Positions 8,907 to 24,344 of a DNA stretch of 33,544 bases are shown in pieces (position 1 is the first letter of the stretch; each line of letters begins with the position of its first letter). Position numbers and translations under genes: made by a program. The stretch comes from an uncultured Ruminococcus sp. (GTDB lineage: Bacteria; Bacillota; Clostridia; Oscillospirales; Acutalibacteraceae). The notes below the pieces were generated by a model. That model was not told the origin of the DNA. It searched no databases and was given only the letters and a program-made list of their open reading frames with translations. Where the stretch lies: assembly GCA_902796225.1 (NCBI GenBank), contig CADBOO010000137.1, positions 1 through 33,544 on the forward strand. Reading direction: 5' to 3'.

Positions 8907-10265
8907 TCACTGAACGCCGAGATACTCTTTGATCTTTTGATGACTTTTCTCAAAAAGCGCCGGCTCGTCTTCGTTTTTCAGGCGACCTTCCTCGACGGTC
9001 ACCTTTCCGTTTACGATGGTATAATCCACGCTGTCGGAGAGTCCGACCGAGGCGAGCATCGTCTTTGGGCTGTACGCCGCGCCGACGATATCCAGCCGAC
9101 GTTTGTCGATCAGGAACATATCTGCGCATTTACCGACCTCGATCGAGCCGATATCGTTCCTGCCGAGGGTTTTCGCCCCGCCGAGGGTCGCGATCTTCAG
9201 CCAGTCGTAACCGTCGGGCGCATGATTGCCGTAGGTGATGCGGGACAGCAGGTATGCCTGACGCATCTCGTCGATCATATTCGATCCGTCGTTGGACGCC
9301 GAACCGTCCACGCCGAGAGAGATCGGGATTCCCAGCTGCATCATATCGGGGATCCGCGCCGCGCCGGAGGCGAGCTTCATGTTCGAGGTGGGACAGTGTG
9401 CGATCGCCGTGCCGGTATCGCGCAGGACGCGCAGCTCGTCGTCGTTGAACCAGATGCCGTGAGCGAACCAGACGTCCTCGCCGACAAAGTCCATCGACTG
9501 CATATATTCGAGCGGGCGCATCTTGAACGCCGTCGTTGTATAGTATTGCTCCTCTTTTGTCTCGCAGAGGTGGGTATGCAGGCGCACTCCGAGCGATCGA
9601 GCGAGCTTTGCCGATTCGCGGTACAGATCGCGCGACGCCGAAAACGGTGAACACGGCGCGAGCGCTACCTGACGCATCGAACCCTCGGACGGATCGTGGA
9701 ATCGTTCCACCGCCGCCATACTGTCTCTGAGGATCTTTTCGGTCGTCTGCACCACGCTGTCCGGCGGCAGACCGCCGTCCTTTTTGCTGAGATTCATCGA
9801 ACCACGCGACGCACAGAACCGTGCGCCCAGCTCCTCCGCGGCTCTGAACTGGGCTTCCAGCATCCCGACAGAGCTTTCGCCGGGGAACACATAGTGGTGA
9901 TCGAAGGCGGTGGTACAGCCGCTTTTCATCAGCAGTGCAAGCGCGCACTTGGTGCTGAGGTAGATCGCCTCCGGATCGAGGTGCTTCCAGATATCATAGA
10001 GCACCGTCAGCCAGTCAAACAGCCTGAGTCCCTGTGTTTCGGGCAGGTTGCGCGAAAAAAGCTGGTAAAAATGGTGGTGGGTGTTGACAAGTCCCGGAAA
10101 GCATAACAGCTCGGTACAGTTGATGACCTGCTCCGCGCCGACGTCCAGATCCTTTCCGATCGCGCGGATCATGCCGTCCTCGCAGAAGATATCCACTTTT
10201 TCATAGATGTTGTCATGCTTGTCGCACGACACGATACAGCGCACGTTGCGCAGCAAAAGAGCCAT
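8907..10265 (-). CDS. 8-oxoguanine deaminase-like amidohydrolase
   Basis: A 452-residue COG0402 amidohydrolase. Metal and active-site motifs: PGLVNTHHHFYQ (about 56-67), HTHLCETKEEQ, FAHGIWFNDDEL, AHCPTSNMKLASG and LGVDGSASND. The stretch RGSMNLSKKDGGLPPDSV followed by ILRDS and LAPCSPFSASRDL is, from recollection, characteristic of Pseudomonas-type 8-oxoguanine deaminase, which turns 8-oxoguanine into urate. Hydroxyatrazine-type enzymes are close relatives, so the exact substrate is not certain. It is the last gene of the transporter operon, which supports a purine substrate. It has GGAGAG upstream. It does not look like SsnA, which occurs in Escherichia coli urate clusters. Confidence 0.82.
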   Translation of the reverse strand: MALLLRNVRCIVSCDKHDNIYEKVDIFCEDGMIRAIGKDLDVGAEQVINCTELLCFPGLVNTHHHFYQLFSRNLPETQGLRLFDWLTVLYDIWKHLDPEAIYLSTKCALALLMKSGCTTAFDHHYVFPGESSVGMLEAQFRAAEELGARFCASRGSMNLSKKDGGLPPDSVVQTTEKILRDSMAAVERFHDPSEGSMRQVALAPCSPFSASRDLYRESAKLARSLGVRLHTHLCETKEEQYYTTTAFKMRPLEYMQSMDFVGEDVWFAHGIWFNDDELRVLRDTGTAIAHCPTSNMKLASGAARIPDMMQLGIPISLGVDGSASNDGSNMIDEMRQAYLLSRITYGNHAPDGYDWLKIATLGGAKTLGRNDIGSIEVGKCADMFLIDKRRLDIVGAAYSPKTMLASVGLSDSVDYTIVNGKVTVEEGRLKNEDEPALFEKSHQKIKEYLGVQ

Positions 10266-10289
10266 GGCGCTCTCCTTTTTTCATTGTCG

Positions 10290-10310
10290 GGGAGGCGTCT
10301 GCGTCCTCCC
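10290..10310. repeat. GC-rich hairpin (REP-like)
   Basis: GGGAGG (10290-10295) pairs with CCTCCC (10305-10310) around CGTCTGCGT. The core resembles the palindrome at 27226-27245 (GRCGTCT then CGTCCCGC-like). It lies shortly before the deaminase ribosome binding site. Confidence 0.5.
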
Positions 10311-10335
10311 GCGGATCTGTATCAGTACGAACTCA

Positions 10336-10357
10336 GGGAGGGGACTATGCCCCTCCC
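10336..10357. repeat. GC-rich hairpin after the permease gene
   Basis: GGGAGGGG (10336-10343) pairs with CCCCTCCC (10350-10357) around a 6-base loop, about 30 bases after the permease stop. No T-run follows on the minus strand, so readthrough to the deaminase is plausible. Confidence 0.6.
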
Positions 10358-10388
10358 CAACATCAGGATTTATGATTGCAAAGCGAAG

Positions 10389-11396
10389 TTATCGATCCTC
10401 TCTGAAGTACGACAGTCCCAGCGCCTCGGGCGGCTGTGTTTCGCGCTTTTTGCGCAGGCTGTTGAAGATCAGGACGATGACCGTAACGGCATAGGGAAGC
10501 ATCTTGATCAGCGGCTTTGCGTCCATCGGGATCGTGACGAACTTCGGCAGATGCTCCGGAAGGACACTCAGTCCGCCGAAGATGATCGCACCGGGAATTG
10601 CAAAATGCGGCTTCCAAACGGTGAAGATGACCAGCGCGATCGCAAGCCATCCAAGAGGCTCGACGACGTCGTTTGCCCATACGCCGGAGGAGTTGTTCAT
10701 GACATAGAACAGACCGCCCAGACCGGAGATCATACAGCCGACACAGGTCGCAATATACTTATACTTGGTGACATTGACGCCTGCCGCATCTGCGGTCGCA
10801 GGGTTCTCACCTACCGCGCGAAGGTTCAGACCGGGTCGGGTACGGCGGATGAACAGCGCTGTAAGCACCGCGATCAGGATCGCGACGTAAGCGAGAAAGC
10901 CGTAGCTGAGGAACATATCCCCGAACCATCCCAGGCTGTCGGAGAACGGGAGCTTTGCCATATAATACTTTGTCGACACCTTGACGGAGATATTTGCCGT
11001 CTCGGCGCCGGGGCTGACCTGCTTGACAAGGAAGCCGCCCAAAAAGTTTGATACGCCGGAGCCGAAGATGGTCAGCGACAGACCGGTAACGTTTTGATTT
11101 GCGCGAAGCGTGATGGTCAGGAAGCTGTAGATCAGACCCATCAGCAGCGAGCCTAACAGGCAGAACAGCAGCGGGATCACGATCGCGAGGAAGGCGTTGG
11201 GATTATCGGCGCCGCCCCAGAAGTATTCATACATCAGAGCGCCCGAAAAGCCGGAGATGCCGCCGACACACATGACGCCGGGCACACCGAGATTCAGGTT
11301 GCCGCTTTTTTCGGTGATGATCTCACCGGTGCATCCGAAGAGCAGCGAGATAGCGGTCAGTACCGCCCTCTGAAAGATCTCAATAAAAATCGTCAT
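10389..11396 (-). CDS. Nucleoside/purine ABC transporter permease (second, NupQ/YufQ-like)
   Basis: A 335-residue hydrophobic protein of the BPD_transp_2 permease family (the second permease of BmpA-NupOPQ systems). Early segments read LLFGCTGEIITEKSGNLNLG, typical of these nucleoside permeases, and TRPGLNLRAVGENPATADAAG is the ATPase-contact loop. I count about eight to ten membrane segments by eye. The frame opens at 11468, but the ATG at 11396 is chosen. It overlaps the upstream permease stop (ATGA) and has AAGGAGG about 10 bases before it; the extra 24 residues of the longer version are polar and overlap the other gene. It partners with the permease just upstream. Confidence 0.9.
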   Translation of the reverse strand: MTIFIEIFQRAVLTAISLLFGCTGEIITEKSGNLNLGVPGVMCVGGISGFSGALMYEYFWGGADNPNAFLAIVIPLLFCLLGSLLMGLIYSFLTITLRANQNVTGLSLTIFGSGVSNFLGGFLVKQVSPGAETANISVKVSTKYYMAKLPFSDSLGWFGDMFLSYGFLAYVAILIAVLTALFIRRTRPGLNLRAVGENPATADAAGVNVTKYKYIATCVGCMISGLGGLFYVMNNSSGVWANDVVEPLGWLAIALVIFTVWKPHFAIPGAIIFGGLSVLPEHLPKFVTIPMDAKPLIKMLPYAVTVIVLIFNSLRKKRETQPPEALGLSYFREDR

Positions 11397-12673
11397 GATT
11401 CTGCCGCCTCCTTGCTCTTTTGCTGACGGGCGCGAACCTTGATCTGATAGTTGATGAAGAATTCGCATCCGATGATGAACAGGATGATGATGGCGATCAG
11501 AATATTCGAGAAGTCATCCGTGATAACGCCGGAGGTACGGGTCGACAGTTCGCTTGCGCCCTGCTTCAGGAAAATGACCAGGAAGGTGGTCAGCACCATA
11601 TAGAAGGGGTTGAACTTCGCCAGCCACGAAACGATGATCGCCGTGTAACCGTAGCCCTTGGCGGATCCGTCGTTGATGATATGGTCGGTACCCGCTACGA
11701 TCAGCAGTCCGGCGATTCCGCACAGCACGCCGGAAATCAGCATGGTACGGATGATGACCTTCTTGACGCTGATGCCGCCGTAACGCGCGGTGTTCTCGCT
11801 CTCGCCTACAACAGAAAGCTCATATCCCTGCTTTGTGTATCTCATATAGAGGAAAACCATCACCGTCAGCGCCGCGACGATCAGGATGTTCAGCAGATAG
11901 CCGCTGGATGACGGTACGACCACACTGCCCGTAAAGGACGGATCGATCTGAGCAGGAAGCCTCAGCCATCCTGCGTAGCTCGGATCGGATCCGGTGCCGT
12001 TGATCGGTCTCAGGGCGGTGCTGCCGCCGGACCAGACGATCTGGATATACCGCACGATCTGGATCGCGATATAGTTCATCATCAAGGTGAACAGCGTCTC
12101 GTTGGTATTCCACTGCGCCTTGAAGATCGCGGGCACAACTGCCCACAGCGCGCCGAACAGGATCGCGGTAATGATCGTCATCGGGAGTACGACAGCATTG
12201 GGAAGCCGCAGGCCGTCGTCGCCCAGAAGCTTCATCGCCATCAGCGCGCCCAAACCGCCCATCAGCACCTGTCCTTCGGCGCCGATGTTCCAGAAGCGCA
12301 TCTTGAAGGCGGGTGTGACCGCCAGCGAAATACACAGCAGGATCGCCATCTCCTGGAGCATGCCCCAGAATTTCTTCGGCGTCTTGAACGAGCCGTTGAA
12401 CATATGTTTATACATCTCGAAGGGGTCTTCGCCGGTGATCACCACAATGATCACCGCACAGACGACAAGCGCCGCGATCAGCGCGCCCGCGCGAATCAGC
12501 AGCGATTTCCACATCGGGATATCGGTACGCTTTACAATATGAAACAGAGGGTCTTTCTGATTCCGGCGGCCGGACTTTTTCTGTCCGCTTCCGGGACGCT
12601 GACCATTGCCCATTTCAGCCTCCGAGCTGATTCTCTGAAGCTGTTCAGACGTATGAACGGACATACTGATCAT
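11393..12673 (-). CDS. Nucleoside/purine ABC transporter permease (first, NupP/YufP-like)
   Basis: A 426-residue permease of the same family as its downstream neighbour. It has an unusually long charged N-terminal tail (about 50 residues, rich in Gln, Arg and Lys) before the first membrane helix (SLLIRAGALIAALVVCAVI). FKMRFWNIGAEGQVLMGGLG is the hallmark of NupP-type permeases, and YELSVVGESENTARYGGIS is the ATPase-contact loop. The start ATG overlaps the ATPase stop (ATGA) after AGGAGGG; an in-frame ATG at 12664 is an alternative. It forms a heterodimeric channel with the next gene product. Confidence 0.9.
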   Translation of the reverse strand: MISMSVHTSEQLQRISSEAEMGNGQRPGSGQKKSGRRNQKDPLFHIVKRTDIPMWKSLLIRAGALIAALVVCAVIIVVITGEDPFEMYKHMFNGSFKTPKKFWGMLQEMAILLCISLAVTPAFKMRFWNIGAEGQVLMGGLGALMAMKLLGDDGLRLPNAVVLPMTIITAILFGALWAVVPAIFKAQWNTNETLFTLMMNYIAIQIVRYIQIVWSGGSTALRPINGTGSDPSYAGWLRLPAQIDPSFTGSVVVPSSSGYLLNILIVAALTVMVFLYMRYTKQGYELSVVGESENTARYGGISVKKVIIRTMLISGVLCGIAGLLIVAGTDHIINDGSAKGYGYTAIIVSWLAKFNPFYMVLTTFLVIFLKQGASELSTRTSGVITDDFSNILIAIIILFIIGCEFFINYQIKVRARQQKSKEAAES

Positions 12674-14304
12674 TTCTCTCCCTCCTCTTTGGTTTCCTGT
12701 ATCGTTTCCGCCTGCGCATCCTGAACGGACGCGTCAGACTGTTCCTGTGCCGACTCGTGCGGGACAGCGGACGCATCGTCGGCGAGGTGCGTCATCATCA
12801 GACCGACTTCCTCCTTGGTGGCGGTGCGTCCGTCAACGATACCGTTGACCTTGCCGTCGCACAGGACGAGGATACGGTCGCACAGCGCCAGCAGAACGTC
12901 CAGGTCCTCGCCGACATAGATGACGGCGGTACCCTTCTTCTTTTGGTCATTGAGCAGCCGGTAGATGGTATAGGATGTATTGATATCCAGACCGCGGACA
13001 GCGTATGCCGCCATCATCACGCTCGGTTCCAGCGCGATCTCGCGGCCGACCAGCACCTTCTGGACATTACCGCCCGACAGCTTGCGAACCGGGGTCGCGA
13101 TGCCGGGGGTGACGACCTCCAGCTCATCCTTGACCTTTACCGCAAGGTCGCGGGGCGTATTGCGGTCGGTAAAAGGACTGTGGCCCATTTTATAGGAACG
13201 GAGCATCATATTGCCGGTCATTCCCATGCTGCCGACCAAGCCCATGCCGAGTCGGTCCTCGGGAACAAAAGCAAGGGTCACGCCCATCTTCTTGATCTCG
13301 CTGACCGAAAGCCCGGTCAGCTCGGTCTCGACGTGGTTGGAATTATCGTAATAAATGATCGAACTGCCTTTTTCGGTTTTTTGCAGACCCGCGATCGCTT
13401 CTAAGAGCTGCTTCTGACCGGAGCCGGAAATGCCCGCGATACCGAGGATCTCGCCGCCGTAGGCGTCAAAGCTGACGTCGTCCAGCACGGTAACGCCATA
13501 CTTATCACGGCATGACAGGTGGCTGACGGACAATTTCTTCTCTTTATACTCCAGATCGGGTCGCTCGATGTCCAGTTCGACCTTTTCGCCGACCATCATA
13601 TCGGTCAGCGACTGAACGCTCGCCTCGGCAGTCAGAACCGTGCCGATATACTCGCCCTTGCGGAGGATCGCCACGCGGTCGGAGATCGCCAGCACCTCGT
13701 TGAGTTTATGGGTGATGATGATGATGGATTTGCCGTCCGCCTTCATGTTGCGCATAACGGCAAAGAGCTTGTCTGTTTCCTGCGGCGTCAAAACCGCGGT
13801 CGGCTCGTCAAGGATCAGCATATTCGCGCCGCGGAACAGCGTCTTGACGATCTCAAGCGTCTGCTTTTCGCTGACGGTCATATTGTAGACCTTTTTCTTG
13901 GGATCGACGTCGAAGCCGTATTTATCGCAGATCGCCTTCACCTTCTCGGTGATTTCCTTCGTTCCGCCGGACTCTTTTTTGTCCATGCCCAGCGCAATAT
14001 TTTCGATCGCAGTGAATACGTCCACAAGCTTGAAGTGCTGGTGGATCATGCCGACGCCCAGATCATAGGCGTCCCTCGGCGAATTGATATGCGCTTCTTC
14101 GCCGTTGATATAGATGACGCCCTCATCCTGACGATAAATGCCCGAAAGCATATTCATCAGGGTCGTCTTGCCGGAACCGTTCTCACCCAGCAGCGCCATG
14201 ATCTCGCCCTTCTGGATATCCATCGTGACGTGTTTGTTTGCGACAACCTTGTTACCGAACCTCTTGGTGATATTCTCAAACCGTATGGCAGGAATGTTTT
14301 GCAC
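12670..14304 (-). CDS. Nucleoside/purine ABC transporter ATP-binding protein (NupO/YufO-like, two ABC domains)
   Basis: A 544-residue protein with two fused ABC domains. Domain 1 has Walker A LLGENGSGKTT, a degenerate signature (MTVSEKQ) and Walker B LILDEPTAVLTP. Domain 2 has a degenerate P-loop (GISGSGQKQ), an intact signature LSGGNVQK and a weak Walker B (MMAAYAVRGLDI). This split of consensus sites is usual in sugar and nucleoside importers of this class. The C-terminal 40 residues are an acidic, Gln-rich tail outside the ABC fold. The start is GTG, preceded by GGAGGG, giving MQNIPAIRFENITKRFG. It follows the lipoprotein gene across a strong hairpin, which suggests lower expression than the binding protein. 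Confidence 0.92.
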   Translation of the reverse strand: MQNIPAIRFENITKRFGNKVVANKHVTMDIQKGEIMALLGENGSGKTTLMNMLSGIYRQDEGVIYINGEEAHINSPRDAYDLGVGMIHQHFKLVDVFTAIENIALGMDKKESGGTKEITEKVKAICDKYGFDVDPKKKVYNMTVSEKQTLEIVKTLFRGANMLILDEPTAVLTPQETDKLFAVMRNMKADGKSIIIITHKLNEVLAISDRVAILRKGEYIGTVLTAEASVQSLTDMMVGEKVELDIERPDLEYKEKKLSVSHLSCRDKYGVTVLDDVSFDAYGGEILGIAGISGSGQKQLLEAIAGLQKTEKGSSIIYYDNSNHVETELTGLSVSEIKKMGVTLAFVPEDRLGMGLVGSMGMTGNMMLRSYKMGHSPFTDRNTPRDLAVKVKDELEVVTPGIATPVRKLSGGNVQKVLVGREIALEPSVMMAAYAVRGLDINTSYTIYRLLNDQKKKGTAVIYVGEDLDVLLALCDRILVLCDGKVNGIVDGRTATKEEVGLMMTHLADDASAVPHESAQEQSDASVQDAQAETIQETKEEGEK

Positions 14305-14410
14305 GTGTTACCCTCCTGTTAATAGTTGATTTGCTTGATACTCAAAAATATGCTTTTTCGCAAATCAGCGACAAAAACCCGCAAGCATATTTCTCAATAT
14401 AAGCAACGAT

Positions 14411-14437
14411 AGCCGGGCGGCGCAATGCCGCCCGGCT
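14411..14437 (-). terminator. Strong hairpin between lipoprotein and ATPase genes
   Basis: An 11-bp perfect stem (AGCCGGGCGGC, 14411-14421, with GCCGCCCGGCT, 14427-14437) and a 5-base loop lie about 20 bases after the lipoprotein stop. No T-run follows. It is best read as a partial terminator or mRNA 3'-stabiliser that lets the binding protein outnumber the membrane components. Confidence 0.7.
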
Positions 14438-14455
14438 CTTAAGTTGTCAGGTAAA

Positions 14456-15661
14456 TTAACCGAAGTTTGTGTTCAACAGAGTGATACCGTCGATGGTAAC
14501 ATCGAAGTACGGAGCCGAACGATACTCGGACTCATGGAAGTAACCGTCGTAAACGATCTTTGTGTTCTTATCGAAATTAGCGTCGGTGCCTTCGCCGGGT
14601 GCAAACTTCTCATCAAGCGCCTTGCCTTCTACTGTGAATGTAGCGGTATCGTAAACATGGAGCTCACCGGACTCGAGCTTCGCCTTGACCTCTTCGATCT
14701 TTTCGGCGGTGCCCTTTGCAGCAGCGGTATCGTTGATCTCGGAGAGAACAACAGAACCGGTCTTCAGGGTGCCTGTCCAGTCGGTGTCGATCTTCTCGCC
14801 GTCCATCGCAGCCTTGATGGCATACTCGAAGTACGGAGTCCAGTCGATCTTGGAGGATACGATAAAGGTGTTGGGACCGGCGTCCTTGGTGGAGCCGTTG
14901 TAAGAGATATTGGGAACACCTGCGTCCTCACAAGCTGTGGGAGCGCCCATGGAGTCAGCGTGCTGAGAAATCAGAACGCAGCCCTTCTGGATCAGAGAAG
15001 TAGCGGCTTCCTTCTCGGCGTCCTGATCATACCAGGAACCGGTGAAGGTAACTTCCATCGTAGCAGACTCGCAGATAGAGCGAGCGCCGAGGAAGAAAGA
15101 AGTGTAACCGGAGATAACCTCTGCATAGGTGAAAGCGCCAACATAACCGATCTTAGCCTCTTCAGCCTTGATCTTGCCGGACTCGATCATCTCGTTGAGC
15201 TTCATACCTGCAGCAACGCCTGCGAGGTAACGGCCTTCGTAGATAGAAGCAAACGCATTGTGGAAGTTGTCAAGGCCTGCGGTATGAGCCTGGGTACCGG
15301 TTGCGTGAGCAAACTGAACCTCGGGATACTCCTTAGCAGCCTGGATCATAAAGTTTTCATGACCGAAGGAATCGGCAAATACAAAGCCGCAGCCTTCGTC
15401 GACCATGTTAACAGCTTCCTTGTAGCAAGCATCAGACTCGTCGATACCGGTCTTGATAATGCACTCGACGCCAAGATTCTCGCACGCCTTCTTAGCAGCA
15501 TCGATGAAGTTCTTGTCATAGGTTGAGTTTTCATCATGCAGCATGATGAAGCCTGCTTTGAACTTTTTGTCGTCGTCCTTCTTGTCGCTGCTGCCGCCGC
15601 AAGCTGCAAGAGCGCCGCATACGAGCATTACAACAAGAAGCATTGCAATAATTCTCTTCAT
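14456..15661 (-). CDS. BMP-family lipoprotein, nucleoside/purine-binding component
   Basis: A 401-residue extracellular solute-binding lipoprotein of the Bmp family (PnrA/BmpA type). The signal peptide ends in the lipobox LAAC with Cys21, followed by a short Gly-Ser-Lys-Asp linker. The mature domain starts KAGFIMLHDENSTYDKNF, the ligand-pocket region typical of BMP purine-nucleoside receptors. It is longer than the usual 340-350 residues. The downstream genes encode a matching NupOPQ-type ABC importer. The ATG has AGGAGG upstream. Codon use looks more selective than in the neighbours, consistent with high expression. Ligand identity (nucleosides, free purines or another BMP ligand) is inferred from context. 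Confidence 0.9.
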   Translation of the reverse strand: MKRIIAMLLVVMLVCGALAACGGSSDKKDDDKKFKAGFIMLHDENSTYDKNFIDAAKKACENLGVECIIKTGIDESDACYKEAVNMVDEGCGFVFADSFGHENFMIQAAKEYPEVQFAHATGTQAHTAGLDNFHNAFASIYEGRYLAGVAAGMKLNEMIESGKIKAEEAKIGYVGAFTYAEVISGYTSFFLGARSICESATMEVTFTGSWYDQDAEKEAATSLIQKGCVLISQHADSMGAPTACEDAGVPNISYNGSTKDAGPNTFIVSSKIDWTPYFEYAIKAAMDGEKIDTDWTGTLKTGSVVLSEINDTAAAKGTAEKIEEVKAKLESGELHVYDTATFTVEGKALDEKFAPGEGTDANFDKNTKIVYDGYFHESEYRSAPYFDVTIDGITLLNTNFG

Positions 15662-15721
15662 AATTTCCTCCTAAAAATTCTTTCATGGATAAAACGGAAT
15701 CAGCTGAAAACTGACATTTTC

Positions 15722-15750
15722 ATTATACCTAATCCGTGAACCATGCGCAA
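15722..15750 (-). promoter_or_regulatory. Promoter of the purine importer operon
   Basis: On the minus strand there is a -10 TATAAT (15722-15727) and, 17 bases upstream, a weak -35 TTGCGC (15745-15750). A better -35 (TTGACA) occurs further upstream, but at 33 bases it is too far. A weak -35 suggests dependence on an activator or moderate basal activity. The untranslated leader is about 55 bases. Confidence 0.6.
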
Positions 15751-15885
15751 TTGAAAATAATGTCAAAATTGTTATCGAATGTTACGGCTATTTTATCGTT
15801 TTTTAACAACGCGCCGAAAATCAGGGGAATATTTGTACGAATTGCTCAAAAGTCTTAATTCTTTTTCGGCAAAATGTAGATAATC

Positions 15886-15914
15886 TTGCATTCATAGGAC
15901 GAGTATTGTATAAT
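15886..15914 (+). promoter_or_regulatory. guaD promoter
   Basis: TTGCAT (15886-15891), a 17-base spacer, and TATAAT (15909-15914) lie 46 bases before the guanine deaminase start. The leader contains CGCCGGAGCGGCG, a small hairpin just before GAGGTGA. Confidence 0.78.
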
Positions 15915-15960
15915 GAAAGCAGCGAAAAAACAGACGCCGGAGCGGCGGTGAGGTGAGCGT

Positions 15961-17232
15961 ATGAACAGCTTTGTGATCAAAGGAGATATCGTTTTCTGTC
16001 CCTATCAAAGACAGATGGTCGCCATCGATGACGGCTATATCGTCGTGCGCGACGGCGTGATCGAGCTGCCGTATGTCGAGCTGCCGGACAGCGCAAAGGA
16101 TCTTCCCGTGCATGATTTCACGGGAAAGCTGGTCATGCCCGGGATGGTGGATCTGCATATCCACGCTCCGCAATATGCCTTTCGGGGGCTGGGCGCGGAC
16201 ATGGAGCTGCTCGACTGGCTGACGCACTACGCGTTCAAAGAAGAAGCAAAGTACAGCGACCGCGAATACGCCGAAAAAGCCTATACGATGTTTGCCGACG
16301 CGCTCAGATACAGCGCTACCACCCGCGCGGCGGTATTCGGCACGATCCACAGAGAATCGACCGTCCTGCTGATGGATAAGCTCGAAAAAAACGGGATCGT
16401 ATCGTATGTCGGCAAGGTCAACATGGACCGCAACTCTCCCGAAAGTCTGACAGAGACGACAGAAGACTCTTACCGCGAGACGGTCGAGTTCCTCGCCGAA
16501 GTCGACGGCAGATACCGCAACACCTACCCTATCGTCACTCCGCGGTTCGTGCCGTCCTGCACCGACAAGCTGCTCCAAAAGCTCGGCTGGCTGAGCGAAC
16601 AGCACGATATCCCCGTCCAGTCGCACCTGAGCGAGAATCCGAACGAGATAAAGTGGGTCAAAGAGCTTTGCCCCGAAAGCCGCTTTTACGGTGAGGTCTA
16701 CGACAGCGCCGGGCTGTTCGGCAGCAATACGAACACCGTCATGGCGCACTGTGTCTGGTCGACAGACGACGAGATCGCCCTAATGAAGGAGCGCGGGGTC
16801 TTTATTGCCCACTGTCCCGCGTCCAATATGAACGTCGCATCCGGGATCGCGCCGATCCGCCGATACCTGACTGAAGGGCTGAAGGTCGGGCTGGGATCGG
16901 ATATCGCGGGCGGTCAGAGCGTCAGCATCTTCACCGCGATGGTCGAAGCGATGCAGCTAAGCCGGCTGTATTGGCGGCATATCGACAGCACAAAAAAGCC
17001 CCTGAGCTTTCCCGAGGCGCTGTATATGGCGACCAAGGGCGGCGGACGATTCTTCGGCAAGGCGGGCTCCTTTGAGAGAGGATTCGAATTCGATGCGATC
17101 GTCATCGACGACAGCGCCCTCCCCCATCCGCAGGAGCTGAACCTCCGCCAGCGCGCCGAACGCGCGGTCTGGCTGGGCGGCGATCAGAAAGGCCTGGTTG
17201 CGAAGTATGTGAGAGGGGAAAGGCTGTTTTAA
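15961..17232 (+). CDS. guaD: Guanine deaminase
   Basis: A 423-residue zinc amidohydrolase that turns guanine into xanthine and ammonia. Motifs: PGMVDLHIHAPQYAFRG (His-X-His metal site and substrate loop), GKVNMDRNSPESL, TPRFVPSC, QSHLSENPNEI, MAHCVWSTDDE, AHCPASNMNVASG and LGSDIAGGQS. The HIHAPQY and MDRN segments are characteristic of bacterial GuaD. The ATG follows GAGGTGAGCGT. It is transcribed away from the purine importer and toward the ygeY-ygeW-arcC operon, linking import, deamination and breakdown of purines. Its last codon abuts a heptad repeat array. Confidence 0.92.
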   Translation: MNSFVIKGDIVFCPYQRQMVAIDDGYIVVRDGVIELPYVELPDSAKDLPVHDFTGKLVMPGMVDLHIHAPQYAFRGLGADMELLDWLTHYAFKEEAKYSDREYAEKAYTMFADALRYSATTRAAVFGTIHRESTVLLMDKLEKNGIVSYVGKVNMDRNSPESLTETTEDSYRETVEFLAEVDGRYRNTYPIVTPRFVPSCTDKLLQKLGWLSEQHDIPVQSHLSENPNEIKWVKELCPESRFYGEVYDSAGLFGSNTNTVMAHCVWSTDDEIALMKERGVFIAHCPASNMNVASGIAPIRRYLTEGLKVGLGSDIAGGQSVSIFTAMVEAMQLSRLYWRHIDSTKKPLSFPEALYMATKGGGRFFGKAGSFERGFEFDAIVIDDSALPHPQELNLRQRAERAVWLGGDQKGLVAKYVRGERLF

Positions 17233-17308: not shown

Positions 17309-17346
17309 AAACGCTCACGGTGGAACTGAGTACTCCGTGAGCGTTT
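17309..17346. terminator. Bidirectional terminator between guaD and arcC
   Basis: A 12-bp perfect stem (AAACGCTCACGG, 17309-17320, with CCGTGAGCGTTT, 17335-17346) and a 14-base loop. On the minus strand it ends in a T-run of six, making a good arcC terminator; on the plus strand it is followed by T-rich sequence. It sits between inverted heptad arrays. Confidence 0.85.
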
Positions 17347-17353
17347 CTATTAT

Positions 17354-17386
17354 TATTCCTAATTTCTAATTTCTAATTCCTAATTA
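17354..17386. repeat. Heptad repeat array, right arm
   Basis: Units TAATTTC, TAATTTC, TAATTCC, TAATTAC form the inverse complement of the left arm. The array crosses the arcC stop codon (17373-17375) and encodes the last residues of ArcC (IRN). Confidence 0.8.
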
Positions 17387-18308
17387 CAGTGCCGGTCTTG
17401 CCGGAAAGGGCGTCTTTTGCCTTGTTCAAATCGGTGATGATCGCCCGTCTGCCCCTGCCGCCTTTGACAAACCGTACAGCCGCGCTGACCTTCGGGAGCA
17501 TGCTGCCGGCGGCAAACTGCCCATCGGCGATGTAACGCTCGGCTTCTTTGACGGTCATGCGGTCGATCGCACGGGCGTCGGGGGTGTTAAAATTGACCAT
17601 GACCTTTTCGACGGCGGTGAGAATCAGCAGGGTATCGGCGTTCAGGTTCTCCGCCAGCAGCGCAGAACAGTAATCCTTGTCGATCACTGCGGCACAGCCT
17701 TTGAGGAATTCACCCTTGCGGCGCACGGGGATGCCCCCGCCTCCGCAGCAGATGACGACCGATCCGTCCTCTGAGGAAGCGCGGATCGCGTCGATCTCGA
17801 TGATATACTGCGGCATCGGCGATGCAACCACGCGCCGCCACCCTCTGCCCGCGTCCTCGGCGATACTGTAGCCGTAGCGCTCTTTGAGATTTTCCGCCTG
17901 CTCGCGGGTCATGAACTTGCCGATCGGCTTTGACGGGTGCTTCATCGCGGGATCGTCGTTGCTGACTTCGACCTGTGTGATGATCGTGACGACAGGCTTG
18001 TACATCCCGCGGCGGGTCAGTTCCTTGCGCAGGGCGTTCTGGATATCATACCCGATATACGCCTGGCTCATTGCGACGCACATCGAGAGCGTCGTCTTTT
18101 CCTCGGTGGGATCTTCTAAGATCAGCGCATTCATCGCGGCGTCGATCTTGCCCACCTGAGGGCCGTTGCCATGGGTGATGATGACGGTATTGCCCGCTTC
18201 GATCAGGTCGGCGATCGCCTTTGCGGTCACCTTGACCGCCTCAAATTGTTCTGTGAGATTCTTGCCTAAGGCGTTACCGCCCAAGGCGACGACAATTTTT
18301 TGTTTCAT
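17373..18308 (-). CDS. arcC: Carbamate kinase
   Basis: A 311-residue amino-acid-kinase-fold enzyme. It makes ATP from carbamoyl phosphate and ADP, releasing carbamate (ammonia plus CO2). Motifs: ALGGNALG near the N-terminus, THGNGPQVG, CCGGGGIPV and VIDKDYCSALLAENL (nucleotide site). It is third in the ygeY-ygeW-arcC operon. In that setting it would take carbamoyl phosphate from the YgeW reaction rather than from arginine; no arginine deiminase is present. The 73-base gap upstream shows no Shine-Dalgarno sequence near the ATG, which is unusual here. The C-terminal IRN and stop come from a heptad repeat array. Confidence 0.95.
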   Translation of the reverse strand: MKQKIVVALGGNALGKNLTEQFEAVKVTAKAIADLIEAGNTVIITHGNGPQVGKIDAAMNALILEDPTEEKTTLSMCVAMSQAYIGYDIQNALRKELTRRGMYKPVVTIITQVEVSNDDPAMKHPSKPIGKFMTREQAENLKERYGYSIAEDAGRGWRRVVASPMPQYIIEIDAIRASSEDGSVVICCGGGGIPVRRKGEFLKGCAAVIDKDYCSALLAENLNADTLLILTAVEKVMVNFNTPDARAIDRMTVKEAERYIADGQFAAGSMLPKVSAAVRFVKGGRGRRAIITDLNKAKDALSGKTGTVIRN

Positions 18309-18354
18309 ATTGAAATACAGGTATCGAGTGCAGGCAGCGCCCGCCCTTCACTAT

Positions 18355-18382
18355 GATCTGTTATCCGTTATCTGTGATCGTT
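18355..18382. repeat. Short heptads after the ygeW stop
   Basis: TGTTATC, CGTTATC and TGTGATC follow in 7-base steps directly downstream of the ygeW stop codon. They resemble the CCGTTAT units after dapF. They lie in the gap before arcC. Confidence 0.5.
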
Positions 18383-19578
18383 CAAAACGCTTTCCGATCC
18401 TGTCCGCGCTTTTCGAGTTCTTCGAGGGCGGATGCGGGATCCTTCACCTTTGCAAGGAAGATCATCGCGGCGATGATATAAGGCTTGAACGACGCCTGTT
18501 TGTACAGCGGGACGCGATAGCGATCGAATACGCTTGCGGCGACCTCGCCCTCTTTGCAGCTGACGTCGGTGATATCGGCGGGCAGACAATGCAGATACAG
18601 CGCCTTGCCGTCCTTCGTCAGCGACATCATTTCCTCGGTGCATTCCCAATCCTTATGGGTGGCGTTCTCTTTTAACAGCTCCTGCTCGAGCGCGTCGATG
18701 CCGGCAAAATCACCGTCGCCGTAGAGCTTTGTGCGCTTTTCCATCGCGTGGAAGGACGCCCAGCTCTTGGGATAGACGATATCCGCGTCTTTGAACGCCT
18801 CTTTCATATCGTTGGTTTTCTTGAAACTGCCGCCGGTCTTTGCGGCGTTGGCTTTGGCGACTTCTTCGACCTCGGGCATAACGTCGTAGCCGTCGGGATG
18901 CGCAAGCACAACGTCCATGCCGAAGCGGGTGAACAGTCCGATCACGCCTTGCGGAACAGAGAGAGGCTTGCCGTAGCTCGGCGAATACGCCCATGTCATG
19001 GCGACCTTTTTACCCTTGAGGTTCTCAACGCCGCCGAATTCGTGGATCACGTGCAGGATATCCGCCATGCACTGGGTCGGATGGTCGATATCGCACTGGA
19101 GGTTGACCAGTGTCGGCTTCTGCTCAAGCACGCCGTCCTCGTAACCTTCCTTGACCGCGTCGGCGACCGCTTTCTGATAAGCGTGGCCCTTACCGATATA
19201 CATATCGTCGCGGATGCCGATCACGTCCGCCATGAACGAGATCATGTTCGCGGTCTCGCGGACGGTCTCGCCGTGGGCAATCTGGCTTTTTCCTTCATCC
19301 AGATCCTGCACCTCCAGCCCCAGCAGATTGCAGGCGGAGGCAAAGGAAAAGCGGGTGCGGGTGGAATTGTCGCGGAAGTTGGAGATTCCGAGACCCGAAT
19401 CGAAGATCCTGGTCGAGATGTTGCGTTCCCTGAGATCGCGGAGCGCGTCCGCGACGGTAAAGACGGCGGCGATCTCGTCGTCGGTCTTGTCCCATGTCAG
19501 GAAAAAGTCGTTTTCAAACATATTCTCAATGCCGAGCGATCTCAGCTTCTCGGCGAATTCTTTAGTTTTTGACATCAT
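18382..19578 (-). CDS. ygeW: Knotted carbamoyltransferase YgeW
   Basis: A 398-residue member of the aspartate/ornithine carbamoyltransferase superfamily, YgeW subgroup. The carbamoyl-phosphate motif is [13 protein letters not shown] and the second motif is [22 protein letters not shown] and [19 protein letters not shown] mark the knotted YgeW type. YgeW is a hallmark of anaerobic purine/urate clusters and is thought to work in the phosphorolytic direction, giving carbamoyl phosphate for ArcC. The start overlaps the ygeY stop (ATGA). A second ATG at 19575 is better spaced from GGAGGG and may be the one used. The natural substrate has not been firmly known to me. Confidence 0.93.
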
Positions 19579-20774
19579 TTACCCTCCGCATAATTCATCG
19601 GTACGGCGGCGTAGACTGCCGCGCAGCGTACCAGATCTTCTTTCCATGTCTTTTCGTTGGGAGCGTGCGCCTGTGCCTCGGCGCCCGGTCCGAAGCCGAT
19701 GCACGGGATGCCGTAGCGACCCATGATCGAAACGCCGTTGGTCGAGAACGTCCACTTATCGACGCGCGGCTCGCCGTACATGCCCTTGTGGGCGGCGACC
19801 ATTGCCTTTGTCGCGGGATGATCCTCGGGGATGACCCATGTCGGGAAGTAACATTCGGTCGGATAGACCAATCCTGTCCACGACGGACGCTCGTAGGTAT
19901 ACATGCTGACCTCTGCGCCGTACTTTTTGACGGCAGGCAGACTGCGGACTTCTTCCAACGCGCTCTGCCATGTTTCGCCGAAGGTCAGGCGGCGGTCAAG
20001 CGAAATCGCCGCAAAGTCGGCAACGGCGCATCTGGACGGCGAGGTGTAGAACTGCTGGGTCACGGTGACGGTGCCCTTGCCGAGGAAGGGATCGTAATGC
20101 AGGCGGTCGTTGAGCTCTTTAATCTGGAGCACGATCTCTGCCATCTTATAAATCGCGTTATCGCCGCGTTCGGGAGCAGAGCCGTGGCAGGAAACGCCCT
20201 TGACCTCGACGCGGATCTCCATGCGTCCGCGCTGACCGCGATAGATCCCCTTATCGGTCGGCTCGGTGATGACGACGAACTCGGGGGTGATATTCATCTC
20301 GTTGTGGATGTACTGCCAGCACAAACCGTCGCAGTCCTCCTCCTGAACGGTGCCGGTGACCAGCACCTTGTAGCCGTCGGGGATCAGACCGAGATCCTTC
20401 ATGATCTTTGCGCCGTAAACAGCGGATACCACGCCGCCTGTCTGGTCGGAGGCGCCGCGGCCTCCGATCTCGGTATCGGTCTCGTAGCCCTCGTAAGGGT
20501 CGAACGTCCAGTTTGACATCTCGCCTAAGCCGACGGTATCGATGTGACCGTCAAAGGCGATGATCTTTTCGCCCCTGCCCATCACGCCGTGGACGTTGCC
20601 CTGAGGATCGGTGAAGGCTTCGTCAAAACCCAGTTTCTGCATCTCGGCGACGATACGCCCGGCAACGCCCTCCTCTTCGGCGCTCTCGCTCGGGATCGCG
20701 ATCAACTCGCGGAGAAACGCGGTCATATCCTTCTCATAGTTTTCTGCTGCTTTTTTAATCGCTGAATAATCCAT
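19575..20774 (-). CDS. ygeY: YgeY-family metallohydrolase (M20 peptidase type)
   Basis: A 399-residue M20/M28-type zinc hydrolase of the YgeY group, often labelled selenium-metabolism-linked hydrolase. Metal-site motifs: [10 protein letters not shown] (about residue 75), [21 protein letters not shown] and VVITEPTD; the dimerisation domain carries [14 protein letters not shown]. In purine-degradation clusters YgeY is thought to hydrolyse a carbamoyl- or amide-containing intermediate. It is the first gene of the operon with ygeW and arcC, and divergent from the regulator and PLP enzymes. The ATG follows GAGGGGGATATT. No selenocysteine context is seen. Confidence 0.9.
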
Positions 20775-20812
20775 AATATCCCCCTCAAACAGTACGACTT
20801 TTACAATTGGAC

Positions 20813-20827
20813 GCGGGTAAAACCCGC
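20813..20827. repeat. Small hairpin in the ygeY leader
   Basis: GCGGGT pairs with ACCCGC around AAA, about 40 bases before the ygeY start on the minus strand. It lies within the untranslated leader, leaves the ribosome binding site free, and is of the same GC-rich type as other intergenic hairpins. Confidence 0.5.
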
Positions 20828-20858
20828 CCTCTGATTTTTTCTCTTCGTTCTAGCTTTT

Positions 20859-20886
20859 ATTATACAAGATTAAGCAGGCGTGTCAA
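20859..20886 (-). promoter_or_regulatory. ygeY-ygeW-arcC promoter
   Basis: On the minus strand TTGACA (20881-20886) and TATAAT (20859-20864) are separated by 16 bases. The leader is about 80 bases with a GC-rich hairpin. The promoter is divergent from that of the PAS/HTH regulator, about 50 bases away, so one bound regulator could act on both. Confidence 0.8.
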
Positions 20887-20936
20887 TTTGATTTTGCAAT
20901 TTTTCTGAAATTATTTTTGGTTTTCATAAAAAATGA

Positions 20937-20965
20937 TTGATTATCTGAAAATGATGTATTACAAT
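20937..20965 (+). promoter_or_regulatory. Promoter of the regulator-PLP operon
   Basis: TTGATT (20937-20942), a 17-base spacer, and TACAAT (20960-20965) lie 43 bases before the regulator start. The region between the two divergent promoters is AT-rich, with only short, weak dyads such as TCAT/ATGA; no clear operator is visible. Confidence 0.65.
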
Positions 20966-21008
20966 GGTTTTATCAGGCGTAACCGCCAACCAACAGTGAG
21001 GTGACCTT

Positions 21009-21662
21009 ATGCTGAATGAACAACTGAAAAACACCCTTTTTTCACTGGCGCATACCATCGCGGCACACTACGGCAAAAGCTGTGAGGTCGCGGTACATGA
21101 TCTGACCGACGACAACGCCGCGGAGCACTCGATCATCTACATCGAAAACGGCGAGGTGACAGGCAGAACTGTCGGCGACGGTGCATCCGGCGTCGTGCTT
21201 GAACAGCTCAGGGGCGATACTCCCGCCGAGGACCGGATCGGCTACTTTTCCAAAACGTCCGACGGCAAGGTCCTTAAATCCTCGACGACCTACATCCGCG
21301 ACGACAGCGGCAAAGTGATCGCGATCTTTTCTGTCAACCATGACATCACCGCATTATCGGTCGCGTCAACGGCGCTGTCGGAGCTGGTCAATCCCTTTGA
21401 ACCCGGCGGCACGGTCGAGCGGATCACGCCGAATGTCGGCGAGCTGCTGGACGAACTGCTGTGGAAATCCACCGAGCTGATCGGAAAGCCGGTATCGCTG
21501 ATGAACAAGGATGACAAAATGCGCGCGATCCGCTTTCTGAACGCCAAGGGTGCGCTGCTGATCACCAAATCCGGCGACAAGATCGCCAAATACTTCGGTA
21601 TCTCAAAATTCACACTATATTCCTATATCGATTCCAAGCAGGAGGAAACTGACAATGATTGA
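21009..21662 (+). CDS. YheO/DauR-like transcriptional regulator (PAS-type sensor plus HTH)
   Basis: A 217-residue regulator. Residues about 8-120 form the YheO-like PAS domain (HYGKSCEVAVHDL, HSIIYIENGEVTGRTVG, FSVNHDITAL), expected to bind a small molecule. Residues about 160-212 hold a C-terminal helix-turn-helix (MRAIRFLNAKGALLITKSGD, IAKYFGISKFTLYSYID). DauR, a relative, controls D-amino-acid catabolism. It is divergent from ygeY and overlaps the PLP enzyme gene by 8 bases, so it most likely controls both transcripts in response to a pathway intermediate. The ATG follows GAGGTGA. Activator or repressor role cannot be told from sequence. Confidence 0.85.
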   Translation: MLNEQLKNTLFSLAHTIAAHYGKSCEVAVHDLTDDNAAEHSIIYIENGEVTGRTVGDGASGVVLEQLRGDTPAEDRIGYFSKTSDGKVLKSSTTYIRDDSGKVIAIFSVNHDITALSVASTALSELVNPFEPGGTVERITPNVGELLDELLWKSTELIGKPVSLMNKDDKMRAIRFLNAKGALLITKSGDKIAKYFGISKFTLYSYIDSKQEETDND

Positions 21663-23124
21663 TTTTACCATCAACAAGGAAGGCTTACAGCACAATATCG
21701 AAAAGGCGCGGGAGAATAATATCGTCATTCCGACCATCAGACAGATGCAGCATCCCGAGCTGATCCCCGACGAGATCAAAGACAAGCTCTGTCACACGGG
21801 GCTTTGGGACGTCGATCCGGTCAACCTGTTCCGCATCACATGGAAGAACGAGGCGAAGGAATCGGGCGGATTGTTCCGCGAAGTGCCGAATTACATCGAG
21901 CTGCCTCCGGCGCTGACAGGCGTCAAGGCGCGGATCTTCGCGATGGTCGGCAAGTGGTTCCCCACAGGCTGCCACAAGGTCGGCGCGTCTTTCGGATGCC
22001 TTGCTCCCCGACTGGTGACAGGTCAGTTTGACGCGACCTATCACAAGGCTGTCTGGCCGTCCACCGGCAACTACTGCCGCGGCGGCGCGTTCAACAGTAA
22101 ACTCCTGTCCTGCGACAGCATCGCCATCCTGCCTGCCGAGATGAGCCGCGAACGCTTTGAGTGGCTCTCAAAGATCGCGGGCGAGGTCATCGCGACCCCC
22201 GGATGCGAAAGCAACGTCAAGGAGATTTTTGACAAGACATGGGAGCTCAGAGAGCGTCCCGAGGTCATGATCTTCAACCAGTTCGAAGAAATGGGCAATC
22301 CGCTGTGGCATTACAACGTCACGGGATACGCGATGGCGGATACCTTCGAAGCGCTCAAGGGCGAGGGCGACCGTTTTGCGGGCGCATGCTTCACCTCCGG
22401 CTCTGCCGGCACGATGAGCGCGGGCGACTATCTCAAAGAGCAGTACCCGAACCTCAAGCTCGCTGTCGGCGAGGCGCTCCAGTGCCCCACCATCCTCGAC
22501 AACGGTTTCGGCGGTCACCGCATCGAGGGCATCGGCGACAAACACATCCCGTGGATCCACAACGTCAAGAACACCGATATGGCGATCGCGATCGACGACG
22601 AGGACAGCCAGAGATTGCTCCGCCTGTTCAACACGGAAGCGGGCAAGGCGTATCTCGTCAACACCCTCGGTCTGGACAGCGAATTTGTAGAAACACTGAG
22701 CTGGCTGGGCATCAGCGGCATCGCCAACATCCTGTGCTGCATCAAGATGGCAAAGTATTACGAGCTTGGCGAGCATGACGTCGTCGGCACCGTTCTGACC
22801 GACAGCGCCGTGATGTATCAGAGCCGCGTCAACGAGCTGAACGACATGTACGGCGCGTACACCGAACAGGCGGCGGAGCTTGACCACAACCTGCATATGC
22901 TCGGACTCAAGACCGACAACCTGCTTGAGCTGCGCTACACCGATCGCAAGCGCATCCATAACCTGAAATACTACACATGGGTCGAACAGCAGGGCCGCAA
23001 CGTCGACGAGCTGAACGCCCTTTGGTATGACGCCGAGAACACCTGGGACGCCGTTCACAAAGAAGCGGCGAAGCTCGACGAGCTGATCGAAGCCTTCAAT
23101 GAGGAAGTCGGTATTCTCAAATGA
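21655..23124 (+). CDS. Fold-type-II PLP-dependent enzyme, cysteine-synthase superfamily (function unknown)
   Basis: A 489-residue enzyme. The likely PLP lysine is Lys108 in TGCHKVGASFG, the substrate loop is STGNYCRGGAFNSK (136-149), and the phosphate-binding loop is GSAGTMSAGD (249-258). It has about 90 residues before the core and a long helical C-terminal extension (after residue 360), so it is larger than cysteine synthase (about 310) or diaminopropionate ammonia-lyase YgeX (about 400). The start lies inside the regulator gene, with GGAGG 9 bases upstream, and its stop overlaps the next PLP gene. Context suggests a lyase or ammonia-releasing step after YgeY/YgeW. A YgeX-like activity is a guess. 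Confidence 0.75.
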   Translation: MIDFTINKEGLQHNIEKARENNIVIPTIRQMQHPELIPDEIKDKLCHTGLWDVDPVNLFRITWKNEAKESGGLFREVPNYIELPPALTGVKARIFAMVGKWFPTGCHKVGASFGCLAPRLVTGQFDATYHKAVWPSTGNYCRGGAFNSKLLSCDSIAILPAEMSRERFEWLSKIAGEVIATPGCESNVKEIFDKTWELRERPEVMIFNQFEEMGNPLWHYNVTGYAMADTFEALKGEGDRFAGACFTSGSAGTMSAGDYLKEQYPNLKLAVGEALQCPTILDNGFGGHRIEGIGDKHIPWIHNVKNTDMAIAIDDEDSQRLLRLFNTEAGKAYLVNTLGLDSEFVETLSWLGISGIANILCCIKMAKYYELGEHDVVGTVLTDSAVMYQSRVNELNDMYGAYTEQAAELDHNLHMLGLKTDNLLELRYTDRKRIHNLKYYTWVEQQGRNVDELNALWYDAENTWDAVHKEAAKLDELIEAFNEEVGILK

Positions 23125-24344
23125 AAAATGTAAAGTATTGCAAATGCGTCCGCTGCGGGCGCGAATATCCCGCAACGCCCGATATCACCACCTGCGAGTG
23201 CGGCGGGATTCTGGACGTCGTGTATGACTACGACTTCATCAAAACCAGCTTTCATCGGGAAAGCCTTGCGGACTGTCCCGATCCGACGATGTGGCGCTAC
23301 CGCGCGCTGCTGCCGATAGAAGAAGACACCGTGCCGCAGGGACTGCGCGTCGGCGGATCGCCGCTTTACAAGGCGGACAACCTTGCCGCCGATCTCGGGA
23401 TCCGGTCGCTGTACATCAAGGACGACGGCGTGAATCCGACGGCGTCGCTCAAGGATCGCGCGTCGGCGATGGCAGTGACCAAGGCGGTCGAGGCGGGCTA
23501 CGGCACGATCGCCTGTTCCTCAACGGGCAACGCCGCTTCGTCCCTTGCGGGCAACGCGGCGAAAGCGGGGCTGAAAACCTACATCTTCGTCCCCGACCGT
23601 GCGCCGAAGGGCAAGATCGCCCAGCTGATGATGTTCGGCGCGAACCTGACCGCCGTGCGCGGGAGTTACGAGGAAACCTTTGAACTGAGCAAAAAAGCGA
23701 TCGACAAATACGGCTGGTATAACCGCAACGCCGCGATCAACCCCTATCTCAGCGAGGGCAAAAAAACCGTCGCGCACGAGATCGTCGAACAGCTCGGCTT
23801 CAAAGCGCCTGACTATGTGGCGGTGTCTGTCGGCGACGGCTGTACCATCGCGGGCGTGTACAAGGGCTTATATGATATGTATATGGTCGGTCTGACCGAC
23901 AAGATCCCGCGGCTCATCAGCGTACAGGCGGCGGGCTGCTGTCCGATCAACACAGCGGTGACGACCGGCAAGCCGTGGCAGCCGCAGGAGGAAAACACCT
24001 ACGCCGACAGTATCGCCGTGGGCGTGCCGCGCAACGCGGACAAAGCGATCAAAGCCATCATTGACAGCGACGGCATATGCGTCAATGTCACCGACGACGA
24101 GATCCGCGCCGCACAGCGGTATCTGGCAAAAAACGCGGGCGTGTTCGGCGAACCGGCGGGGGTCACCGCGACAGCGGGCCTCATCAAGCTCAGCCGCGAG
24201 GGTAAGCTCGACCCTACCGCGACGATCGTATCGATCGTCACCGGCAACGGGCTGAAGGACATCGAAAGCGCGATCAACAACTGCGGCGCTCCCGTGAGCT
24301 GTGCGAATGATCTGGGTGAATTCGAAGAGAAATTCGGGCTGTAA
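23121..24344 (+). CDS. Threonine-synthase-like PLP enzyme with Cys-rich N-terminus
   Basis: A 407-residue fold-type-II PLP enzyme. It opens with a small Cys cluster (CVRCG at 9-13, CECGG at 25-29), as in zinc-ribbon threonine synthases. The PLP lysine is Lys111 in NPTASLKDRA; SSTGNAASSLAGNA (133-146) is the substrate loop and SVGDGCTIAG (236-245) the phosphate loop. True threonine synthase would be expected with hom and thrB, which are absent. Here it overlaps the 489-residue PLP enzyme by ATGA and lies in a purine-type cluster, so a role in breakdown of a small amino acid such as diaminopropionate is possible. Plain threonine synthase cannot be excluded. Confidence 0.75.
   Translation: MKNVKYCKCVRCGREYPATPDITTCECGGILDVVYDYDFIKTSFHRESLADCPDPTMWRYRALLPIEEDTVPQGLRVGGSPLYKADNLAADLGIRSLYIKDDGVNPTASLKDRASAMAVTKAVEAGYGTIACSSTGNAASSLAGNAAKAGLKTYIFVPDRAPKGKIAQLMMFGANLTAVRGSYEETFELSKKAIDKYGWYNRNAAINPYLSEGKKTVAHEIVEQLGFKAPDYVAVSVGDGCTIAGVYKGLYDMYMVGLTDKIPRLISVQAAGCCPINTAVTTGKPWQPQEENTYADSIAVGVPRNADKAIKAIIDSDGICVNVTDDEIRAAQRYLAKNAGVFGEPAGVTATAGLIKLSREGKLDPTATIVSIVTGNGLKDIESAINNCGAPVSCANDLGEFEEKFGL

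Follow-up and report, generated by a model that had tools for sequence, protein, structure and literature searches.

The question raised by this locus is how a bacterium that appears to degrade purines by the reductive urate pathway ends that pathway without YgeX, the 2,3-diaminopropionate (DAP) ammonia-lyase. The locus lies in a window of 33,544 nucleotides, the whole stretch of DNA that was analysed, which is contig CADBOO010000137.1 (C137) of an uncultured Ruminococcus sp. draft genome (G000; 2.18 Mb, 166 contigs, 89.7% complete). Next to the genes for YgeY and YgeW, the window encodes two fold-type II enzymes of the kind that uses pyridoxal phosphate (PLP), which we call P1 (489 aa; positions 21655-23124, + strand) and P2 (407 aa; positions 23121-24344, + strand). 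Our best explanation, to which we assign a probability of roughly 0.6, is that YgeX has been replaced by P1 and P2, and that these dispose of DAP, perhaps via L-serine. The parts of this statement differ in strength: replacement of YgeX by P1/P2 at the level of the module is well supported and quite likely, and the route from DAP to L-serine is tentative, at somewhat less than even odds.

A predicted urate pathway spread over three contigs

The initial annotation placed a purine-to-ammonia gene set in this part of the window and suggested that it may be a reduced or alternative pathway. Family scans of the window confirm the gene set in its place, and find none of YgeX, HyuA, YgfK and xanthine dehydrogenase (XDH) among the open reading frames (ORFs) scanned. 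The purine/urate-to-ammonia theme is also borne out, with pathway genes over their cut-offs in both window and genome. A reduced pathway is rejected, because YgfK, HyuA and XDH, as well as SsnA, score over cut-off elsewhere in the same genome. YgfK (1291.8 > 835.3), SsnA (NF005540, 652.4 > 444; TIGR03314, 583.5 > 455.5) and HyuA (TIGR02033, 566.7 > 393.25) are neighbours of one another on contig C124, and a selenium-type XDH (TIGR03311, 1226.5 > 830.45) is on contig C32 (L079). The latter contig holds two molybdenum-hydroxylase large subunits and a FAD subunit, and either large subunit could be the urate reducer. Judged by its genes, the neighbourhood is predicted to be part of the reductive urate pathway that Li et al. 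described (2025, PMC12507026; commentary in PMC12990295). The window would supply the lower half of the pathway (YgeW, YgeY and carbamate kinase), together with purine intake and feeder deaminases, and the upper half (the XDH-type reductase, YgfK, SsnA and HyuA) would be encoded elsewhere in the genome. For the last step, the conserved P1/P2 pair would dispose of DAP instead of YgeX.

In a profile search with TIGR03528, no YgeX match over cut-off was found in G000 or in the 16 further carriers (0/17), where carriers are the genomes of the genus that have both P1 and YgeW, G000 included. Six of the 17 are at least 97% complete. Across a test set of 34 genomes, made up of the 17 carriers, 16 fairly complete genus-mates without YgeW that were picked by hand, and G105 from another family, YgeX is over cut-off in G105 only. 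P1 and P2 miss this cut-off themselves, the best match in G000 being P2 at 25.3 bits against 532.25, and are therefore rejected as members of the YgeX family. The initial annotation had regarded a complete ygeX/hyuA/xdh cluster elsewhere in the genome as evidence against its proposal; hyuA and xdh are indeed there, and ygeX was not found. What stands of the alternative pathway is thus one step, for which no carrier has YgeX over cut-off and the PLP pair largely complements YgeX across the phylum sample.

All 17 carriers, and none of the 16 chosen non-carriers, have a molybdenum hydroxylase (PF02738) together with a YgfK that passes its cut-off; HyuA passes its own cut-off in each of the 17 and in G105. 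In a larger set of 118 genomes (G000 included), 72 of which belong to the genus, 17 have a P1 orthologue (82-93% identity), all of them within the genus, and YgeW is over cut-off in exactly these 17 plus G105. In all 11 of the other carriers whose loci were fetched (of 16), P1 adjoins P2 and YgeY-YgeW run divergently from the pair, so the layout, which the initial annotation had proposed to compare between genomes, is not due to chance. In seven of the 17 carriers (G014, G016, G025, G039, G041, G055 and G056) no more than about 5 kb separates YgfK from P1, and YgfK, HyuA and SsnA form a single run with the P1/P2-YgeY-YgeW cluster in several genus-mates. A NADP glutamate dehydrogenase and an NfnAB-like pair adjoin SsnA in G016, and also in G039, where they were recognized by first residues only. 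These neighbours, like the glutamine synthetase III at the flank of the window cluster, suit an ammonia-releasing pathway.

G105 has XDH, HyuA, a short YgfK, SsnA, ArcC, YgeW, YgeY and YgeX in a single run, and a homologue of the window's regulator REG, 50% identical to it, stands beside YgeX. This genome has no P1 orthologue (best match 29% identical) and no P2, and its lone match to threonine synthase (ThrC) is of the long form. The G105 YgfK (L082:10325-11956; 543 aa) matches the model well only at positions 1-425, with weak 4Fe-4S matches behind, and is without the central NAD(P)H/FAD region of the full YgfK (987 aa in G000), which suggests a different electron donor.

Distribution of P1, P2 and YgeX across the phylum

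A sample of 398 genomes of the phylum was searched with four queries (P1, P2, YgeX and SsnA). For P1, matches at E ≤ 1e-30 were counted; for P2, those at E ≤ 1e-80 minus three weak ones (38-44% identity; G136, G206 and G425); and for YgeX, by a generous limit, those at E ≤ 1e-60 (61 genomes, 39 of them over the family cut-off). SsnA was counted only over its cut-off, and 16 genomes with weaker matches were scored absent. By these rules SsnA occurs in 86 genomes; P1 homologues are found in 70 of these versus 17 of the 312 others, and P2 in 70 versus 5 (75 genomes in total), compared with YgeX in 23 of the 86. The pair is complete in 73 genomes; 14 have P1 alone and two have P2 alone. Among the SsnA genomes, 68 have both (12 of these with YgeX), two have P1 only and two P2 only (none with YgeX), and 14 have neither. 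YgeX is present in 11 of these 14, and the remaining three (G365, G388 and G479) are without P1, P2 or YgeX.

The same pattern is seen when genomes are collapsed to genera, a gene being scored present if any sampled member of the genus has it: P2 occurs in 44 of 55 SsnA genera versus 2 of 212 others, and the SsnA genera divide into 36 with P2 without YgeX, 10 with YgeX without P2, 8 with both and 1 with neither (Fisher p 1.4e-5). At the family level, 30 of 39 SsnA families have P1 and 15 have YgeX, with six having both and none having neither. Across the phylum sample, P1/P2 are largely complementary to YgeX, and the complementarity is partial. The idea that P1/P2 have taken the place of YgeX without exception is rejected: 12 of the 86 SsnA genomes contain both P1 and YgeX, and the two share several single loci. 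In the genome of L243 (G481:C9), L242 and L117, there is a canonical YgeX cluster, and P1 and P2 are separate genes on other contigs. The PLP enzymes, which the initial annotation described as uncommon, and the regulator, which it described as private, are present in the window, but private they are not: close P1 homologues (57-72% identical) occur in 33 other genomes of the 398, in addition to the REG homologue in G105.

What remains of interest is that the reductive urate pathway seems to have an alternative ending, and a widespread one. In Li et al. 2025 (PMC12507026), YgeX is assigned by the broad Pfam family PF00291. A survey on this basis would read P2 as YgeX, because P2 scores 250.4 bits against a cut-off of 35; the window P1 falls under the same cut-off (32.6 < 35), and some P1 homologues are over it. 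In the titles and abstract openings that we searched, we did not find the P1/P2 ending named; Liu et al. (Cell 2023, Nat Microbiol 2025) and Kasahara 2023 are outside that scope and may mention it. If P1/P2 are the commoner ending, what becomes of the carbon and nitrogen of purines may be mis-assigned in many gut bacteria, and two PLP families would gain a testable substrate. The gut urate pathway is being pursued as a gout target (PMC12507026).

Candidate reactions of P1 and P2

AlphaFold models of both proteins are of good quality by predicted local distance difference test (pLDDT 89.1 for P1 and 91.2 for P2). The structure neighbours of P1, among the 50 matches listed, are cystathionine beta-synthases (CBS), cysteine synthases (CysK) and their kin at 17-27% identity. 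Those of P2 begin with 13 bacterial threonine synthases (34-38% identity); plant ThrC, dehydratases and racemases come after them. These are fold-II neighbours of the kind expected, and they indicated no substrate for P1 or P2. The lysine motif is kept in both proteins, with Lys108 of P1 invariant in 33/33 sequences and Lys111 of P2 in 32/32. P1 is far below the cut-off of the cysK models (73.7 vs 350.95), and P2 passes the NCBIfam thrC model TIGR00260 (216.5 > 167.1).

The thrC score is what would be expected if P1 and P2 were ordinary enzymes of cysteine and threonine synthesis that are here by chance, and no other ThrC was found in the G000 draft or in G237 (80% complete). We nevertheless consider this reading highly improbable. 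A separate long ThrC is present in 7/7 P2-bearing genus-mates tested, and a separate ThrC or equivalent in 5/6 P2-bearing genomes of other families; P2 is also strongly tied to SsnA across the 398 genomes. In addition, the arginine of the NPxRxEGQKT motif, which we take to bind the substrate phosphate in ThrC, is Leu, Met or Cys in 29/29 aligned P2 sequences; it is kept in both short ThrC controls, and three long ThrC controls are unaligned at that site. The VGNAGNIT loop of ThrC is replaced by VGDGC in the same 29/29 sequences, and four N-terminal cysteines are invariant in 32/32. Given the separate ThrC in relatives and the lost arginine, P2 is thought unlikely to be the housekeeping ThrC.

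We infer that DAP is the substrate of P1/P2, and, with less certainty, that the pair would act by beta-replacement rather than by direct beta-elimination of the YgeX type. Beta-replacement comes naturally to enzymes of the CBS/CysK and ThrC folds. In such a scheme, DAP would lose ammonia on the ThrC-like P2 and water would be added to give L-serine, which could pass to pyruvate via serine dehydratase or enter serine metabolism. Two loci give clues to the reaction. In L118 (G262), a YgeY-family gene (381.8 > 321) lies 18 bases behind P1, and this genome has no SsnA, P2 or YgeX match at the thresholds used; because P1 and a YgeY-family gene pair up in such a genome, P1 plausibly takes the product of YgeY. 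In L217 (Oscillospiraceae metagenome-assembled genome (MAG) Lab288P1bin74), P1 is followed 16 bases on by YgeX and then by REG-YgeY-YgeW, with no P2 match, and YgeX occupies the position that P2 has in the window.

The serine step is suggested by neighbouring genes. Of 140 loci searched, 126 contain P1 (some contigs are present twice, the same contig having been fetched twice), and serine-metabolism genes are near P1 in nine of the 126, mostly within the same gene run. The arrangements are P1-SdaAB-SdaAA (L120 and L136), P1-P2-SdaAA-SdaAB (L143; SdaAA over cut-off), P1-SerC-P2 (L177), P1-SerC-SerA-DUF1015 followed by YgeX (L179) or by SdaA (L184), P1-P2-SerC-SsnA-YgfK (L188), and P1-P2..SerC-SerA (L197, and L210 with a weak SerA match); SerC is over cut-off in L177, L188 and L197. 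With 2-3 serine loci per genome, roughly two of 126 would be expected by chance, by a rough estimate of our own. The presence of these genes near P1 points to conversion of DAP to serine by beta-replacement. That most urate-degrading members of the phylum end the pathway with this undescribed two-enzyme DAP-to-serine route, P1 plus P2, and not with YgeX, is a possible but doubtful extension. In a bolder and far less likely form, P1 would exchange the beta-amino group of DAP for phosphate, and the resulting O-phosphoserine would pass through SerC/SerA to 3-phosphoglycerate; if so, purine carbon would yield extra ATP.

A different division of labour is conceivable, in which the pathway makes D-DAP and the lyase reaction falls to one of the two PLP enzymes, its partner being a DAP racemase or specific for a single isomer, so that P1 and P2 jointly equal one YgeX and the products are pyruvate and ammonia. 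This would accord with the R configuration proposed for the ureido intermediates (PMC12990295), with the action of E. coli YgeX on both D and L isomers (PMC12507026), and with the dehydratases and serine/aspartate racemases among the fold neighbours of P2. P2 is also nearer to the YgeX profile than P1, with hhalign values of 97.4% over 285 columns for P2 and 55.2% over 198 columns for P1. The serine genes in the P1/P2 gene runs would be left unexplained, however, as would the retention of P1 beside YgeX in L217 and L179, and we regard this division as unlikely, though a good deal less so than the remaining possibility, that P1/P2 serve the selenium/molybdenum hydroxylases, with a cysteine-lyase-like P1 delivering S or Se, and have no part in the DAP step. 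P1 is CysK/CBS-like, with the H2S-producing Fn1055/Fn1220 among its fold neighbours, and in L120 and L136 it is in a gene run with a MocA/YgfJ-like gene and YqeC (read from first residues). A maturation role would not lead one to expect YgeX in most SsnA genomes that have neither P1 nor P2 (11/14). Accessory genes for selenium hydroxylases also occur together with YgeX in E. coli, E. faecalis and C. difficile (PMC2276186), which would count against such a role if these species lack P1/P2. We regard a service to the hydroxylases as very improbable.

Several points weigh against replacement of YgeX by P1/P2 and against the proposed chemistry. YgeX is kept in 12 of the 68 SsnA genomes that have both P1 and P2, and all three genes are in one locus in L124, L156, L188, L194, L221 and L230, so that P1/P2 may add a branch besides replacing a step. 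The P1 homologues fall into three levels of identity, at least 57% (34 genomes, 28 with SsnA and 10 of these with YgeX), 40-46% (15 genomes, 10 with SsnA and none with YgeX) and 34-43% (38 genomes, 32 with SsnA and two with YgeX), which need not have one common function. The spacing of P1 and P2 in the 73 genomes with both is less than 1 kb in 29, 1-10 kb in 17 and 10-60 kb in eight, and in 19 they are more than 60 kb apart on one contig (4) or on different contigs (15). Culturable strains in which P1 adjoins P2 include Flavonifractor sp. An306 and Halanaerobium kushneri. SsnA is not over cut-off in 17 of the 87 P1 genomes, and HyuA is over cut-off in two of the 16 non-carriers (G002 and G032). 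The statistics take account of kinship solely by the collapse to genera and families. The serine link consists of nine of 126 loci from few lineages, with some contigs counted twice, and the DAP chemistry of P1/P2 is deduced from genes.

Gene layout of the window and comparison with known systems

The cluster is flanked by a glutamine synthetase of type III (6694-8790, + strand; Pfam GSIII_N, 267 bits), which is likely an ammonia sink; ORFs of 698 aa, equal to it in length (a match of length only), are near the deaminase gene in the genus-mate loci L081 and L085. The 8-oxoguanine deaminase, which would yield urate, is at 8907-10265 (- strand; NF006055, 540.7 bits > 532), and its homologues are at the cluster end in genus-mates. 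The BMP-type importer, possibly for nucleosides or purines, is encoded on the - strand by ATP-binding cassette (ABC) permeases A (10389-11468) and B (11393-12673; both PF02653), an ABC ATPase (12670-14304; PF00005; best NCBIfam match NF047930 at 399.9, below the cut-off of 670) and a BMP/PnrA-like substrate-binding protein (14456-15661; PF02608, 96 bits). Permease B is given as the longest ORF and overlaps permease A, so one end is uncertain. A guanine-deaminase-like amidohydrolase follows at 15961-17232 (+ strand; TIGR02967, 362.2, slightly below the cut-off of 375.4).

On the - strand are the carbamate kinase ArcC/YqeA, which would make ATP from carbamoyl phosphate (17373-18308; TIGR00746, 364.7 > 358.25), the carbamoyltransferase YgeW (18382-19578; TIGR03316, 785.2 > 500) and the ureido-hydrolase YgeY (19575-20774; TIGR03526, 653.3 > 321.5). 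In L122 (6668-7651), and similarly in L124, L127, L130, L131, L155 and L236, there is an ornithine carbamoyltransferase (OTCase)-like carbamoyltransferase of about 327 aa that is only ~33% identical to YgeW; the named clusters of this kind are from Halanaerobiales and Desulfosporosinus. Between YgeY and REG is a divergent control region of 234 bases (20775-21008), common to both gene groups, with promoter-like TTGATT ... TATTACAAT; in an alignment of 26 loci, among which a contig is present twice in at least two cases, its elements GTCAA / TTGAT / TA..AT are kept at 80%. REG (21009-21662, + strand; PF08348, PF13309) is a YheO-like PAS_6/HTH_22 regulator. It overlaps P1 by 8 bases and P1 overlaps P2 by 4, so REG-P1-P2 look co-transcribed; on the opposite strand, YgeY and YgeW overlap by 4 bases. 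Some other loci (L122:4822-5373, with homologues in L120, L136, L233 and L241) have a helix-turn-helix (HTH)-cupin regulator of ~180 aa by P1 or P2, and no PAS_6 regulator match was seen there. Free-standing B3/4-domain proteins are near P1 in two unlike lineages (L176:8533-9237 and L250:10630-11331). By P1, the closest named relatives are the uncultured Ruminococcus MAGs L157 (91% identical) and L158 (88%). Adjoining the cluster, at 24516-27200, is a gene for a protein of 894 aa that has disordered PT repeats and, at its C terminus, a dockerin domain. The window has no tRNA and no Rfam match at gathering scores.

As single proteins, P1 and P2 each resemble a known family. P2 has the fold of threonine synthase and 34-38% identity to solved bacterial ThrC, but differs in the absent NPxRxEGQKT arginine, the VGDGC loop and the four N-terminal cysteines. 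P1 has the fold core and PLP motifs of cysteine synthase and cystathionine beta-synthase, but is only 17-27% identical to them among the 50 matches listed and, at 489 aa, has N- and C-terminal extensions. YgeX, like P1/P2, is a fold-type II PLP enzyme tied to this pathway. As a system, the genes of G000 correspond to the yanthine or reductive uric-acid pathway described in E. coli and C. difficile (PMC12507026), with which they have in common the XDH-type enzyme, YgfK, SsnA, HyuA, YgeW, YgeY and carbamate kinase. In contrast to that pathway, G000 has P1 and P2 and no YgeX over cut-off, its genes are spread over three draft contigs, and it adds the 8-oxoguanine and guanine deaminases and the BMP importer.

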